Shown here: one piece after another, positions 22,824 to 29,600 of the stretch
Layout: the number at the start of each line of letters is the position of its first letter
How positions within the stretch are numbered: the stretch's first letter is position 1
Assembly: GCF_013391105.1 (NCBI RefSeq)
Contig: NZ_CP058335.1
Coordinates: 372,001-436,000, forward strand
Reading direction: 5' to 3'
DNA length: 64,000 nt
Origin: Natronomonas salina
Lineage (GTDB): Archaea > Halobacteriota > Halobacteria > Halobacteriales > Haloarculaceae
Translations under genes and position numbers: made by a program
The notes under the pieces: generated by a model
The model's database searches: none
Seen by the model: the letters and a program-made list of their open reading frames with translations, nothing else
What the model was told of the DNA's origin: nothing

Positions 22824-23861
22824 TCAGTCGTACTTCTCCGGGTACGCCTCCTCGAGCAGTTCCGGCTCGGCGAGCAGCCGCTCTCGGACGGGGTCGACCA
22901 CGTCCGAGATAGCTGCCGCCGCCGCCGGCTTGAGGTCCGCCGGGTGGAGTTCGCCGGAGACGAAGTCCTCCTCGAGCGTCTCGTAGTCGTCGTAGACGAG
23001 GTCGCCGCCGTACTCCTCGGGCCGTTCGACGACGAACTCCGCGCCGCGCTCCTCGAGGACCGGGAAGACGAGGAACCGGAGGTACTCGAGGACGCCGTTG
23101 TCCTCGACCTCGCCGGCGGGGCAGTAGGCCCCCTCGATTTTCTCCGCGATGGCGTCGTCGTCGTCAGCGAGGTTGACCTTCGAGGACTCCTCGGAGGCGG
23201 ACATCTTCCCGCCCGTCAGCCCGGATAACAGCGGCGCGAAGACGCAGACCGGCTTGTCGTAGCCGCGGTCCGGCAGCTGCTCGCGGGCGAGCATGTAGAT
23301 GCCGCGCTGGTCGATGCCGCCGTAGGCGACGTCGGCCTCGAGGGCGGCGACGTCGAGGGCCTGCATCAGCGTGTAGACGAGCCCGCCGAGCTTCGGGTTC
23401 TCGGACTGCCGGACGACCTCGCTGCCGGCGCGCTGGGCACGCGAGAGGGTCGTCTCGGCGAGCATGCGGTAGAGCTCCAGGGTGTAGGGCTCCTCCAGCT
23501 GGAACTCGGTCCCGCGGACGAAGGAGATCGCCTCGGGGTCGGCGCCCGCCGCCTCGATCATCCCGACGATGGCCGCCTCGTAGTACGCCGAGCGAGCCTC
23601 CAGCAGCTCGAAGGGGGACTTCGCGTCGTCGAGGTGGGCGTGGAGGTCCGCGACGAGGACCGTCACGTCGAGGCCGGCCTCGACGAAGTCCGCCAGCTTC
23701 CGCATCGTAGTGAAGTGGCCGATGTGCATCTCGCCGGTCGGCGCGTAGCCGATGTAGGCGGTCGGGGCGTCGCGTTCCTCGAACAGCGCCTCGACCTCGG
23801 CTTCCTCGACGACCTCCTCGGTGAATCGCGTGACGAGTTCGGTCCGCTCGGCCGTGTCCAT
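22824..23861 (-). CDS. tyrS: Tyrosyl-tRNA synthetase
   Basis: 345 residues, class I aminoacyl-tRNA synthetase of the archaeal type. HIGH motif at residues 46-49 (MHIGHF), KMSKS equivalent KMSAS near residue 224, and tyrosine pocket text such as YIGYAPTGE and QALDVAALEADVAYGG. Start ATG 23861 lies 26 bases after a reverse-strand TTTTAT box (23885-23891), giving a leaderless message; the longer frame upstream is spurious. Length normal for archaea. Confidence 0.95.
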   Translation of the reverse strand: MDTAERTELVTRFTEEVVEEAEVEALFEERDAPTAYIGYAPTGEMHIGHFTTMRKLADFVEAGLDVTVLVADLHAHLDDAKSPFELLEARSAYYEAAIVGMIEAAGADPEAISFVRGTEFQLEEPYTLELYRMLAETTLSRAQRAGSEVVRQSENPKLGGLVYTLMQALDVAALEADVAYGGIDQRGIYMLAREQLPDRGYDKPVCVFAPLLSGLTGGKMSASEESSKVNLADDDDAIAEKIEGAYCPAGEVEDNGVLEYLRFLVFPVLEERGAEFVVERPEEYGGDLVYDDYETLEEDFVSGELHPADLKPAAAAAISDVVDPVRERLLAEPELLEEAYPEKYD

Positions 23862-23956: not shown

Positions 23957-25264
23957 TCAGGGCCTGAACTCGAATCGCGCACCCTCTGCGCCGCTGTGGG
24001 TGACGTCCCAGCCGTGGCGGTCGGCGACCAGCGACACGAGCGCCAGTCCGATGCCGGTGCCGCCGTCGTCCGACCAGCCCCACTCGAAGAGTTGCTCGCC
24101 GATTCCGTCGGCGAAGCCGGAGCCGTCGTCCGCGACGTAGAAGCCGCCTCCGTCCAGCGGCCCGACCTGTACGGTGACCTCGTCGCCGCCGTGTTGGATC
24201 GCATTCCGGAACAGGTTCGAGAGCAACAGCCGCAGCAACCGGTCGTCGGCCTCGACCCTCGCGTCGGTGCCCTCGAGACTCGCGTCGGCCGTCGAGACGC
24301 CGCTCCAGACCTCGACCGATACGTCGCGTAGCGACACCTCGTCGACGGAGAGTTCCGGGGCCACGAGCGCGTTCACCTCGTCGATGACCGCGTCGATACG
24401 CTCCAGCGCCGCCTCGACGTGTCCGAGGTGGTCGTCCCCGTCCTCGGCGAGGTCAAGGTGGACCATCGCGACGTCGAGCTGGTTGTTCACCTCGTGAGCG
24501 ATGGCCTTCCCGAGGAGTGCGTACCGCGGTTGTAATGACCCACTCATGGCGGGCGTCGACCGGACGACGTGCTCGACGGCGCGCACCTCGGCCGCCCCGA
24601 CCGCGGAATCGGAGGTGCAGATCAGACAGCGGTCCTCGAAGGGTACGGCGACCGTGCTGAGGTTCCCGGATTCGACGACCGACTCCCCCGAACGGAGAGC
24701 ACGTGCCCAGGGGTCCTCCGCGTCGACCGGGACTGTCCCGAGTGCACCGAGCGGGATACCAGCCGCAGCGACAGGGACGATAGAGTCGTCCTCGCGACGG
24801 ACCAGCCAGGCCGTATCGTAGCCCACGCCGTCGGCCAGCCGTTCGCAGACGGATCCCTCGTCGTCGCTCTCGTCCAGGTCCGCCGCGAGCTGGACGACAC
24901 GCCCCACCCGCCGCCGGGTCCGTTCGATCCGTTCGTCGTCGAGTACCTGCCGGACCGTCCGACCGACCGCGTCGGCGTCCATCGGCACGACGGCGTCGGC
25001 CCTCGTGGCCGGTATCTCGTCGGTCGCGACCACGACCGGCGTCCGCCCGTGGACGCGACGGATCCGCTGGACTGCCGTCGAGGCAGCGACGTCGATGGCC
25101 GGCGCGACGACCACCACCGCATCCACGGTCGCCGGCGTCAGCGTCGCGACTGAGTCGACGGCCTCGACCTCCGCCGTCGTGATTCCCTCCACCACGGGTC
25201 GCGACGACGGCCCCGTCCCCACGACCCGTACCCGCCGAGAATCCGCGTGCTCGCTCTCCCCCAA
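23957..25264 (-). CDS. Soluble sensor histidine kinase
   Basis: 435 residues, no membrane segment. An N-terminal receiver-like alpha/beta region (to about 115) is followed by a GAF-like sensor region (about 120-240). The HisKA H-box is AIAHEVNNQ with His257, the N-box NLFRNAIQHG, the G1 box VADDGSGF and the G2 box GGTGIGLAL. No response regulator is adjacent. The N-terminal region lacks an obvious phospho-acceptor Asp triad, so it is probably a degenerate receiver. Signal unknown. Confidence 0.85.
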   Translation of the reverse strand: MGESEHADSRRVRVVGTGPSSRPVVEGITTAEVEAVDSVATLTPATVDAVVVVAPAIDVAASTAVQRIRRVHGRTPVVVATDEIPATRADAVVPMDADAVGRTVRQVLDDERIERTRRRVGRVVQLAADLDESDDEGSVCERLADGVGYDTAWLVRREDDSIVPVAAAGIPLGALGTVPVDAEDPWARALRSGESVVESGNLSTVAVPFEDRCLICTSDSAVGAAEVRAVEHVVRSTPAMSGSLQPRYALLGKAIAHEVNNQLDVAMVHLDLAEDGDDHLGHVEAALERIDAVIDEVNALVAPELSVDEVSLRDVSVEVWSGVSTADASLEGTDARVEADDRLLRLLLSNLFRNAIQHGGDEVTVQVGPLDGGGFYVADDGSGFADGIGEQLFEWGWSDDGGTGIGLALVSLVADRHGWDVTHSGAEGARFEFRP

Positions 25265-25345
25265 GATGTCCCGCTGTGAGCCCGCTACGTACTAAACACT
25301 GCGTCCAATATCGCTTGACGATAAGTAACTACAGTAATTACGCAA

Positions 25346-25366
25346 GTGAATAAATTTTATACCGAG
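25346..25366 (+). promoter_or_regulatory. TATA box of the surface-protein cassette
   Basis: A+T-rich stretch with ATTTTATACCG (about 25355-25365), 26 bases before a start site near 25386 and ATG 25393. It stands within an A+T-rich 100-base intergenic segment that also carries GTAACTACAGTAATTAC. Confidence 0.6.
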
Positions 25367-25392
25367 TAACGCGGTCAATACCGCACGAGCAG

Positions 25393-26916
25393 ATGTTTCG
25401 ACTCTCGATACTCGTCGCCTCTCTGACGCTGTTCGGCGCGTTCATCGGTGTCTCCTCCGCTGCGAGCGGTCCGATGGCCGACGCCGGACTCGACCAGTCG
25501 GTGACCGTCGATACCGTCGTCCACCTCGACGGAACCGGTTCGAACCACCCGGACGGGCCCCTCTCCGACTACGAGTGGCGAATCAGGACGCCCGACGGCA
25601 GGACGATTGAGCCCGACTGTCACGACTGTGAACGATCGCAGTTCACGCCTTCAACAGTCGGTCGGTACGAGGTGACGCTCACGGTCGCTGGACCCGACGG
25701 AACCCGAAGCACGGACAGTCTGTACGTCTACGTCGAGGATGCCGGGCCCGACGTGGCACTCTCTGGACAGCGCAACCCCGGCCCCGGCCAGCCGGTGACG
25801 TATACTGCCAGTGCCGAGAGCCCCGACGCTGAGCTCGAAGAGATCGCCTGGGCTGTCGAGGACGAGATCGTCGCCGTTCGGTCGCTGGACGGGTCGACCG
25901 ACCAGAGCGAACTCTCGCTGGCCTTCCAGGACGCGGAGACACACCGTGTCCAGGTCGTCGTTCGGGACACGAACGGGCGGACAGCGTACGACCAGTTGTA
26001 TGTCCAGCCACAATCGGAATCCGCGGGTGTACCGGATTCGCCACCTCAACCCGAGGATGAAGAGTGTGATTCCGTCATCTGTCTTGATATCGATTCACCG
26101 GAGACGCCGACCGGTACCGCGGACGAGGAGCCAAATCCAGCACCTTACGAAGTTCGCTACATGACTGAGGGCTACGAATCCCGGCAGTTTGCAGGGTTGA
26201 CTGATACTGGTTCTAGCTATATGGGTAGGACTGCAGAAGAATTTGGGTTAGACGATGGGCAGAACGCTCACTGGGAGCAGGGTATCTGGGAGAAATCAAT
26301 CGGTTCTGCTATTTCAAAGGGCTCAAGAATTCTTTTCGGTCAAGAGCAGAAGACCGTACGATGTGAGATTGATGGAAGTGATACTATACCTCGCGAATGT
26401 GGACAGAAGGTAGCTGAGCTAGAAAACAGTGGGAAGACATCGAACGTGTATTCACCAACTCGTAGTGGTGCATATTCGGAGTATGGGTTAACTGGTGGGG
26501 AGAGAGTTGTAGGGACGAACCCTACAGATCTTGAAGAAGGCGAAGTAGCGGAAGTGACGATTGTAATCCAGCAAGAAGAAGAAGGGATAGTAGACAGAAC
26601 CGTCGATAAGGCGGAATCGTCGGTGGAGAGTATTAATGATGCGGTTAGTGGGGTTTTGGATGAGACTGGTGATAATCAGGAGACTTCCAGCAGCAAATCT
26701 TCGAGTTCTTCTGACACTCGGAGTCAAGAAACCGAAGAAGGATCTATTTCTTCGAGAACTGATCTGCTGTCCGGCGGAATAGATCGGCTCAAATCCAGTG
26801 CCCAGAAAGGCACTGAGGGGATTTCTTTACCGGAATCCTCCACCAGTGATGCCAACGATAGGACAGATAATCAAGCGTATTCACCGAGTAGAAGTGGGGC
26901 GACATTCGCACGATGA
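25393..26916 (+). CDS. Exported PKD-type surface protein, mosaic composition
   Basis: 507 residues with a Sec signal (MFRLSILVASLTLFGAFIGVSSA). Two PKD/Ig-like beta domains follow: residues about 28-120, including VHLDGTGSNHPDGPLSDYEW, and about 123-210. The C-terminal half (about 225-507) has no family I recognise; it holds two YSP(T/S)RSGA motifs (about 354 and 493) and a Ser/Glu-rich low-complexity stretch. DNA up to about 26050 is host-like G+C rich; after that it is visibly A+T rich. Overlaps the next gene by four bases (ATGA). No C-terminal anchor is visible. Confidence 0.75.
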   Translation: MFRLSILVASLTLFGAFIGVSSAASGPMADAGLDQSVTVDTVVHLDGTGSNHPDGPLSDYEWRIRTPDGRTIEPDCHDCERSQFTPSTVGRYEVTLTVAGPDGTRSTDSLYVYVEDAGPDVALSGQRNPGPGQPVTYTASAESPDAELEEIAWAVEDEIVAVRSLDGSTDQSELSLAFQDAETHRVQVVVRDTNGRTAYDQLYVQPQSESAGVPDSPPQPEDEECDSVICLDIDSPETPTGTADEEPNPAPYEVRYMTEGYESRQFAGLTDTGSSYMGRTAEEFGLDDGQNAHWEQGIWEKSIGSAISKGSRILFGQEQKTVRCEIDGSDTIPRECGQKVAELENSGKTSNVYSPTRSGAYSEYGLTGGERVVGTNPTDLEEGEVAEVTIVIQQEEEGIVDRTVDKAESSVESINDAVSGVLDETGDNQETSSSKSSSSSDTRSQETEEGSISSRTDLLSGGIDRLKSSAQKGTEGISLPESSTSDANDRTDNQAYSPSRSGATFAR

Positions 26917-27950
26917 CGGATAGACCATCTGACACCCGTTCCAAACTCGATAGGCGGACTTTCCTAGCAGAAGCCTCGATTTTAGCAACGGCTACGATGT
27001 CCGGTTGTGGGACCAGTCAAAGTGGTGCGTCTGAGAAGGAACGGACCCCGATTAGTACGACATCAACTGTAACGAGTGAAGGTAGTGTCGAAGATGATAT
27101 CGTAGGAATCTTAGAAGACATCAGCGCACTCTACGAACGACTATCTGCCCTACCAATTGTCGAAGACAACGAGTTCGTATTTCGAGTAAAGGCTTTTGAG
27201 AACGATTTTGATCAGAAACAACTATTCACAGATGCAGATAGGATTCTGGAGGGACTGGAGAGCCGAAGTTCATCTGACAGAGATAGTCCCCGAATTGAGA
27301 CTCTCATTGATAGTACGGAATTAGCAAAACTGCTTGCTAGGCAGCGCGGAATAGTACATCAAGTCATTGCAGCCGGTCTCGTTTTTCATCGAAGAGTAAA
27401 CCAGGAGGACTACGACTGGGCAACAAATGCTATTCAGAATGCACAACAATTTGTCGTCGACCTTCGTAGGAACGTAGATCGAATCGGAGAGACAGTAGAA
27501 GCAACTGATCGGTCTCGACTATCTATAGACGAATTTGATCCAAATTCGATAAGGACGTCCCAAGCCCACCTCGTCGAAATCTGTCGTTGGACGAAGTTCG
27601 CCTATGAAGGTTTAAACAGGACTGTTCGAGGAATCCGGAGGTTCGATACTGGAAACACCGAATTAGAAAGAGAGGAGTATACTGGTGCTGCGACTGCCTA
27701 CGAAGAATCCTATGCGGATTTTGAGTCAGCCGTAGAGGCCTTCGATAAAGCACAACGCCGTGGAAAGCAGCTTCCACATCTAGTCCCGGTCGTAGACGGT
27801 ATGAGATGTCTGTTACCTGCCTATATGGAGAGTAGTAGGAACCTCAGCCAATCGATGGAGGAATTCCAAGCCGGCAACCAAGACCATGCGAGAACAATCG
27901 CACGAGAAGCGATCGTAACCGCCGATAAAAAGGCGTCGAGGTGTTTTTAG
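26913..27950 (+). CDS. Tat-exported lipoprotein of unknown function
   Basis: 345 residues. Twin-arginine signal DRRTFLAEASILATATMSGC with lipobox MSGC, so a Tat-secreted, lipid-anchored protein. The mature part is largely alpha-helical and unrelated to families I recognise; a long helical stretch near residues 140-300 (LLARQRGIVHQVIAAG, YEGLNRTVRGIRRF) hints at a helical bundle. The whole gene is A+T rich with AAA, AAT and ATA codons that are rare elsewhere in the window. Translationally coupled to the PKD gene. Confidence 0.7.
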   Translation: MTDRPSDTRSKLDRRTFLAEASILATATMSGCGTSQSGASEKERTPISTTSTVTSEGSVEDDIVGILEDISALYERLSALPIVEDNEFVFRVKAFENDFDQKQLFTDADRILEGLESRSSSDRDSPRIETLIDSTELAKLLARQRGIVHQVIAAGLVFHRRVNQEDYDWATNAIQNAQQFVVDLRRNVDRIGETVEATDRSRLSIDEFDPNSIRTSQAHLVEICRWTKFAYEGLNRTVRGIRRFDTGNTELEREEYTGAATAYEESYADFESAVEAFDKAQRRGKQLPHLVPVVDGMRCLLPAYMESSRNLSQSMEEFQAGNQDHARTIAREAIVTADKKASRCF

Positions 27951-27990
27951 ATTGTCTCCGGTTCCAATAGCGAAGGGGAGGGTTTGACTG

Positions 27991-28620
27991 ATGGCGAGAA
28001 CGGACAAACAGGTTAACTGGAGGAAAGGAGTGAGGTTTGCTATTTCAGCATGCATTCTGGTATCAGCTGTTGGCTTTCTCTTGATCACTTTCTCTGTCTC
28101 GTCCGGAATAATCGATCTCTCTAAAGATCCTGTTACGGACGCCGAACAGGATGCATCGGGAGTGCCAAATATCACCTCGTCAGAACGCTCATCGATAGAC
28201 GGTTATGCACTTGAGATGCGGATCTTCGAGAGAGTTAACGAGCTACGGAAGGCACATGGACGAGACCCATTCGTACACTCAGAACGTGTTCGTCTAATAT
28301 CGCGAATGCATAGCGCAGACATGGCGAAACGAGGATTCTTCGACCATACCAATCCTGATGGACTCTCGCCCCCCGGTAGACATGAGAAATACGAAGGGTG
28401 TGAAAATCCAAACGAAAATATCGTCGAGTGGGAATCATTCACAACGAACGATACTAATAAAATCGCTCGAGAGGTTGTGTCGAGCTGGTCGAATTCTACG
28501 CCCCATAATTCCACTCAATTAAGTGAATATTACCATGTTTCTGGCGTCGGTGTCTACGTTACCGAACAAAAGGAACTCTACGTCACCCAGAACTTCTGCC
28601 GCGAGCACCCGAACGCCTAG
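27991..28620 (+). CDS. CAP (SCP/PR-1) domain protein, membrane anchored
   Basis: 209 residues: an N-terminal membrane helix (about 14-36), a short linker, then a CAP domain with [44 protein letters not shown] and [19 protein letters not shown]. These are the CAP1-CAP4 landmarks. The conserved acidic/His cavity residues appear to be kept (His in DHTNPDG, His in TPHN). Low-GC like its neighbours, except the last 15 codons, which return to host G+C. Its stop shares CTAG with the moaA stop. Bacterial and archaeal CAP proteins are extracellular, of mostly unknown role. Confidence 0.85.
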
Positions 28621-29600
28621 GCGCCGATGTACTCCTCGTTGAAGACCCAGTCGCCGTCCCCATCCCGGACCAGGTACTCACCGTAGTACGGGACCCGCTC
28701 GGCGACGGTCTCCCGGAACGCTTCGCGAATCTGGGGCTTCGTCATCTCGCCCATGCTCTTGAGGTCGTCGTTGCGGTTCAGACAGCCCTTGAGGTACCCT
28801 TCGTGCGTGACGCGCACGCGATGGCAGTTCGCACAGAAGGTCGGGTTCTCGACGGGGTCGACGATCTCGACCATCCCAGTCTCCGTGGCTTCCGTGTCGT
28901 CCGGACTGACCCAGTACCGCTTGCGGTCGTGCATCTCGCGGTGCTCGACGCGGTCGGCCTGCTCTTCGAGCCAGCCGTGGACGCGGTCGATGTCGACGGC
29001 CCATTCCGGCCGGCCGGCGAGTTCGGGCATGTACTCGATCAGCTGGAGCTGGAGTCCCTCGTTCTCGGCGACGTGGTCGACCATCTCGGGGACGTAGCCC
29101 GCCGTCTGCTCGAAGACGACCATGTTGAGCTTGACGGGGGCGAGACCGGCGTCGAGTGCCGCGTCGATGCCGGCGAGGACGTCCTCGTAGGCGGTGCTCT
29201 TCGTGACCTCGCGGAACGCCTTCGGGGAGAGGGCGTCCTGGGAGACGTTGACCCGTTCGAGGCCGGCGTCGGCGAGCGCCTCGGCGCGGTCGGGGAGGAA
29301 GGTGCCGTTGGTGGTGAGGGAGGTCTCCATGGCGTCCGGCGTGCGGCGGACGATCTCCTCGAGGTCGTCGCGGAGCATCGGTTCGCCGCCGGTGAACTTC
29401 ACCGAGTCGACGTCGAACTCCGCGGCGACCTCCAGGAACCGGACGACGTCGTCGGTCGACATCTCGTCGTCGGCGGGTTCCATGGGGCCGCGGGTGTCGC
29501 CGAGGCCCTCGTTGTGGCAGTAGACGCAGTCGAAGTTACACCGGTCGGTGAGCGAGACGCGGACGCCGGTGACCTCCCTGCCGAACCCATCCTCGAGCAT
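28617..29600 (-). CDS. moaA: GTP 3',8-cyclase MoaA (molybdenum cofactor biosynthesis)
   Basis: 327-residue radical SAM enzyme that starts molybdopterin synthesis from GTP. The SAM cluster is C21-x3-C25-x2-C28 (RCNFDCVYC). The second, substrate-binding cluster uses FCANCHRVR and KGCLNR in the C-terminal region. GGEP (TGGEPMLR) is the SAM contact. Ends in a variable tail without the usual terminal GG, as in many haloarchaeal homologs. A reverse-strand TTTAAG box (about 29621-29630) lies 26 bases before ATG 29600: leaderless. No other moa gene is next to it. Confidence 0.92.

Follow-up and report, generated by a model that had tools for sequence, protein, structure and literature searches.

The trpS-moaA interval of this genome is probably a fixed slot in haloarchaeal chromosomes that holds a variable module of exported surface proteins, and its present content appears to have been exchanged. 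The module would open with a secreted protein whose constant head holds two Ig-like PKD domains, and the tail of this protein would change as a block with the partner genes behind it, which in this genome encode a Tat lipoprotein and an anchored CAP protein. The block at 26008-28576 seems to differ in recent history from its edges and would have taken the place of a resident allele of broadly similar type. It probably entered by homologous recombination, in which the PKD head would have served as the left arm and the CAP end with moaA as the right arm. Taken as a whole (fixed slot, block exchange, replacement in this genome and a role in surface recognition or adhesion), we consider this explanation reasonably probable.

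Organization of the locus

The window, that is, the whole 64-kb stretch analysed (G000:C1:372001-436000), comes from a haloarchaeal genome of 3.75 Mb on a single contig. The locus is bounded on the left by trpS (tryptophanyl-tRNA synthetase, 22824..23861, minus strand, start placed by eye at MDTAERTELV) and on the right by moaA (28617..29600, minus strand). Both anchors are open reading frames with congener homologs in the same place. Next to trpS is a histidine kinase gene (23957..25264, minus strand, Pfam HATPase_c), which is divergent from the PKD gene and separated from it by an AT-rich intergenic region (25265..25392) that presumably contains the promoter. A similar histidine kinase is at the equivalent position in a genome of another genus (G379, L232), and other genes replace it in G001, G010 and G016 (a HalX response regulator in the case of G010, L084).

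Three co-directional genes on the plus strand follow, encoding the PKD protein (25393-26916), the lipoprotein LIP (26913..27950) and the CAP protein (27991-28620), the last with a stop codon that overlaps that of moaA. The only Pfam domains in this cassette are PKD (E 2e-12) and CAP (PF00188, E 3.8e-13, 50.7 bits against a cut-off of 21.1). The constant head of the PKD gene (25393..26007) encodes a signal peptide, recognized by eye, and two PKD domains. The variable tail, which we call type A (26008..26916), has no known domain and is found only in Natronomonas. LIP has an RR ... GC lipobox and the CAP protein an N-terminal hydrophobic anchor, both assigned by eye. The motif YSPxRSGA occurs twice in the PKD tail, internally and at the C-terminus (26448-26471 and 26877-26900; 79% DNA identity). 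Flanking repeats were sought around the cassette, and none was convincing.

Composition steps within the PKD and CAP genes

The cassette is the sole part of the window in which 500-base windows fall below 0.53 G+C; overall G+C goes across it from about 0.65 to 0.45-0.51 and back to 0.65. A two-change-point fit to third-codon G+C places the left border at 26008 (2-lnL interval 25993-26026, best position at residue 206 of the PKD protein) and the right border at 28576 (28576-28582). Third-codon G+C is 0.79 to the left of these borders, 0.42 between them and 1.00 to the right, where 14 of 14 codons are counted. By permutation, p = 0.0005 for the right-hand step and 0.002 for the PKD step alone. 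The neighbouring genes have values of 0.86-0.94, and the PKD head, at 0.79, is itself slightly under the host level. Values within the interior are 0.42 for the tail, 0.41 for LIP and 0.44 for the AT-rich part of CAP (27991..28575); the last 14 CAP codons and the stop (28576..28620) form the right junction region. The left step coincides exactly with the point where the second PKD domain ends and matches a homology break between two other Natronomonas genomes, G011 and G014. The preliminary description had put the switches near 26050, inside the PKD gene, and near 28570, at the end of CAP. Both agree with the fitted positions to within about 50 bases, and both borders do lie within genes, on either side of a Tat lipoprotein that is A+T rich throughout, as described.

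Such steps could also arise if the cassette were vertically inherited, with its AT-richness due to rapid evolution under weak constraint and to relaxed selection on codons, and with the borders marking changes in constraint. Faster-evolving segments do show lower third-codon G+C, and lower values in tails and partner genes are common at the locus even where there has been no recent exchange. Within segments, however, conserved and variable residues are alike: both give 0.78 in the PKD head, and in CAP residues 1-195 the values are 0.40 for residues identical in four relatives (n=52) and 0.47 for those shared with none (n=81). Yet the last 14 CAP codons, at the end of a protein whose last residues are conserved in all congeners, all have G or C in third position. 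The steps are thus positional, and residue conservation is excluded as their origin. We regard vertical inheritance of the cassette as unlikely, and return below to other observations that bear on it.

The same slot in other haloarchaea

Related loci were sought among 60 relatives, using gene calls from simple ORF scoring and homology; the genomes compared include incomplete ones (G014, G007, G011, G013 and G015). PKD-LIP-CAP is encoded immediately before moaA, in the same trpS-moaA slot, in four congeners: G001 (Natronomonas sp. CBA1123), G010, G016 (N. gomsonensis YCN60) and G018. Their homologs are full-length and the alignments run across both borders. This sharing of one set at one locus is compatible with vertical inheritance. 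It also bears on the simple insertion of a foreign gene island beside moaA, which would account for low G+C within a G+C-rich genome. We consider an island very improbable: the genes that contain the borders have full-length homologs in the same position in other species, and the genes of the locus include no visible integrase or transposase. Carriage by viruses or plasmids finds no support either, as no relative of the PKD protein was identified among viral contigs and no plasmid copy covers 80% of PKD or CAP. The interior is not an exotic insert, as the same set occupies the same locus in four congeners, and on this point the preliminary description needs correction.

Other arrangements are common. 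The gene order is PKD-CAP-LIP in G002 and histidine kinase-PKD-CAP-LIP-moaA in G379, the genome of another genus. In G027 the same three genes occur in a different order and a different place, and in G272 and G330 CAP-LIP is downstream of a giant protein. In six Natronomonas genomes (G011, G013, G014, G015, G017 and G007) the PKD head is joined to other tails and accompanied by another lipoprotein, LIP2, which was not found in any other species searched. One genome (G012) encodes a PKD protein of 1070 residues, and a PKD match is absent from the trpS-moaA place in G003, G004, G005, G008 and G019. PKD heads are located near trpS and/or moaA in further genera (G055, G031, G029, G034, G021 and G033). 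The partner combinations at the slot comprise LIP and CAP in two orders, LIP2 in one or two copies, and a membrane protein. Since PKD heads, tails and partner sets are spread over genera at or near this slot, we conclude that it is old and variable.

On the head tree, one branch separates the heads of type A (with LIP and CAP) from those of type B (with LIP2), and a single branch of the trpS+moaA tree also splits the species of the two types, as vertical inheritance would predict. Type A heads and tails travel together, and shuffling of heads and tails between the types was not seen, the two types being separated by a branch on both trees. The gene set of type A is old. A profile of tail A has matches at the main locus only, and in Natronomonas only (4 of 392 genomes sampled); thus, headless reserve copies of this tail were not identified among the 392 genomes.

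Several relatives have additional features. The match to moaA in G001 (L077) is split over two frames (residues 1-155 and 155-327), reflecting a frameshift or a draft error. G002 has two CAP matches of equal score and identity about 41 kb apart (G002:C1:448539-449072 and 489743-490276), perhaps a recent duplication. LIP is one member of a family of all-helical Tat lipoproteins (310-350 residues) that is widespread in haloarchaea (L223-L231, L239 and L240). No PKD-head or CAP homolog was found within 4-5 kb on either side of these family loci, and the members tested have no matching Pfam model. A lone LIP homolog in G008 (L233) is near a large gene resembling a conjugation-type coupling ATPase, perhaps in an integrated plasmid, which is a possible route of spread. 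Lone LIP2 genes without PKD pieces occur in G017, G014, G007 and G015 (L269, L270, L271 and L272) and may be reserve partners or unrelated paralogs.

Block replacement in close relatives

Different alleles on the same flanks were identified at the trpS-moaA locus of two sister species, G011 and G014. DNA identity between G014 and the G011 copy beside trpS is 95.6% over trpS and 91% over the PKD head. Similarity then stops at residues 206-211 and does not resume until close to moaA, with 93.8% identity between G014 and the moaA copy of G011. At the protein level the tails are 21% identical and the LIP2 proteins 41%. G007, which is outside the G011/G014 pair on the tree, shares the tail (~73% DNA) and LIP2 (78-83%) of G011 and does not share those of G014. 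As the outside genome has the G011-like tail and LIP2, G014 is the recipient: it received a new tail and lipoprotein on old flanks. The G014 assembly is an incomplete metagenome genome (76%) in which the PKD gene lacks its 5' end.

In G014 the step in third-codon G+C lies on the homology border, at residue 207 (204-209), and in the genome studied here it is at residue 206 (201-212). Loci without that replacement (in G011, G007 and G017) have the step at residues 272-286, close to the position, at about residue 281, where the two G011 PKD copies diverge. Because steps coincide with homology breaks, we take composition steps in this gene family to mark exchange junctions, of which there appear to be two usual ones. 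The left step in this genome is as sharp and as placed as that of G014, where replacement is demonstrated, and this counts further against vertical inheritance of the cassette.

Composition steps carry no direction, and an exchange of the edges instead of the interior must therefore be weighed. In that case two stretches, moaA together with the CAP end and the upstream region together with the PKD head, would have been homogenized with other strains, while an old AT-rich interior stayed as it was. That moaA and the last CAP codons form a conserved stretch common to relatives is consistent with such a history; in G009 three or four positions differ within the final 47 bases of CAP. However, the interior is what changed in G014, the sole polarized case, and the PKD head here has not been homogenized, as its DNA identity to the nearest relatives is only ~67%. 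Exchange of the edges is accordingly rather improbable, less so than an island but more so than vertical inheritance. Our preference for an exchanged interior in this genome is argued by analogy with G014.

The PKD loci of these relatives are also rearranged. One locus in G011 reads trpS-PKD-LIP2-moaA remnant-permease and the other GTPase-like gene-PKD-LIP2-LIP2-moaA (L236 and L085 are G011 loci). G014 keeps a second copy in the arrangement GTPase-like gene-PKD-LIP2-moaA remnant-permease (L238). The last ~25 codons of moaA moved along with the PKD duplicate. Flanks appear to have been swapped between the two loci, as expected of a chromosomal rearrangement through PKD copies. In G013 (L087 and L237), PKD-LIP2 is found beside trpS and beside moaA, ~46 kb apart on one contig, with the LIP2 genes in reversed orientation and both PKD genes apparently damaged or partly deleted.

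Origin of the interior in this genome

We compared segments by the ratio of the ML protein distance between this genome and the G001/G010/G016 clade to the distance within that clade. The ratios are 4.6 for trpS, 11 for moaA, 5.7 for the PKD head, 6.8 for the tail, 6.5 for LIP and 7.9 for CAP. Relative to the nearest clade, the AT-rich interior (6.5-7.9) thus has no excess divergence over the head (5.7), and the likeness of head, tail, LIP and CAP is also in keeping with vertical inheritance. A distant foreign donor is not supported by these ratios. Given the lack of excess divergence and the restriction of tail A to Natronomonas, any donor likely came from the same allele pool, rather than from a distant organism.

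The flanks of the nearest relatives of this genome are at most about 84-88% identical to it in DNA. No relative in the collections has flanks near 95% identity, and no close relative shows an alternative allele, so we infer the replacement in this genome from its composition signature, on which basis it is the most likely history. The preliminary description had proposed replacement of the interior through shared PKD 5' and CAP 3' ends. Borders within genes, and the replacement in G011/G014 at the same junction with the same step, bear this out for the family. For this genome the event would be read from composition, and the CAP 3' end is a plausible recombination arm on the evidence of 14 codons.

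Products and predicted function

Apart from its signal peptide, the PKD protein shows no evident membrane anchor. A twin-arginine lipobox and conserved C-terminal cysteines are present in LIP, the AlphaFold2 model of which is all helical (pLDDT 85) and has no trustworthy match in the PDB. Library searches gave no domain match for the PKD tail, the model of which has pLDDT below 50. Based on these sequence features, the PKD protein, LIP and CAP would all come together on the outer side of the membrane. That tail and LIP2 changed together in G014 suggests that tail and lipoprotein are matched partners. We predict that the tail and its lipid-anchored partners most likely form a cell-surface recognition or adhesion complex, in which variation would be selected by viruses, rivals or mating partners.

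Polymorphic toxins with Rhs/CDI-type tip exchange have a constant head, an AT-richer variable C-terminal tip and a partner gene that changes with the tip. The locus described here is similar in having a constant head, an AT-richer variable tail and a co-changing partner gene. Unlike those systems, no toxin domain, immunity gene or contact-delivery domain was found, and none of the toxin, immunity and defence families searched for matched in the cassette. The partners are exported, and thus are not cytoplasmic immunity proteins. The tail itself may be a toxin of new fold. The third gene clearly encodes a protein of the CAP superfamily (PF00188; YkwD-like), although here it is part of a three-gene exported set.

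Relation to known systems and significance

Variable Thermococcales Ig modules (VARTIG) have an exchanged C-terminus and variable downstream genes, and their authors report no counterpart outside Thermococcales, to which arCOG07710/arCOG14200 are confined (PMC8416519). As in VARTIG, the operon here begins with a secreted Ig-fold protein, the PKD protein, that has a constant N-terminal part and a C-terminal part varied by recombination (the G011/G014/G007 mosaic and the two G011 copies). It is followed by small membrane or exported proteins in varying sets, with exchange in situ at fixed loci. The differences are that the last Ig (CARDB-like) domain varies in VARTIG, whereas here the PKD pair is constant and the tail has no recognized Ig domain. 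The downstream genes are short tail copies there, and Tat lipoproteins and a CAP protein here; in library searches LIP and CAP share no domain with the PKD tail. Also lacking is the DNNxxxGG C-terminal motif (the PKD protein ends SGATFAR), and the hosts are haloarchaea rather than Thermococcales. Without short downstream tail copies and the DNNxxxGG ending, the locus is not classed as a VARTIG member. It is doubtful, and we suggest it tentatively, that the locus represents a haloarchaeal VARTIG counterpart: a pan-haloarchaeal self/non-self or virus-escape module with tail swapping in place at trpS-moaA and tails matched to co-exchanged lipoproteins.

Surface-protein genes also vary in a fixed chromosomal region in the cell-wall genomic islands of Haloquadratum walsbyi, which are large islands, in contrast to one slot of 2-4 kb with an intragenic junction (PMC4535781; PMC3119063). 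No description of a haloarchaeal trpS-moaA locus was identified in open-licence papers. Surface variation by exchange of a tail and partner block is thus known from heat-loving archaea, and we did not find it described in haloarchaea.

VARTIG is the only archaeal module of this kind known. A step in third-codon G+C where the PKD head ends provides a simple signature for finding exchange events from sequence alone. Some haloarchaea can be grown and are genetically tractable, so that a module in these organisms would open surface recognition, virus escape and mating specificity to direct test.
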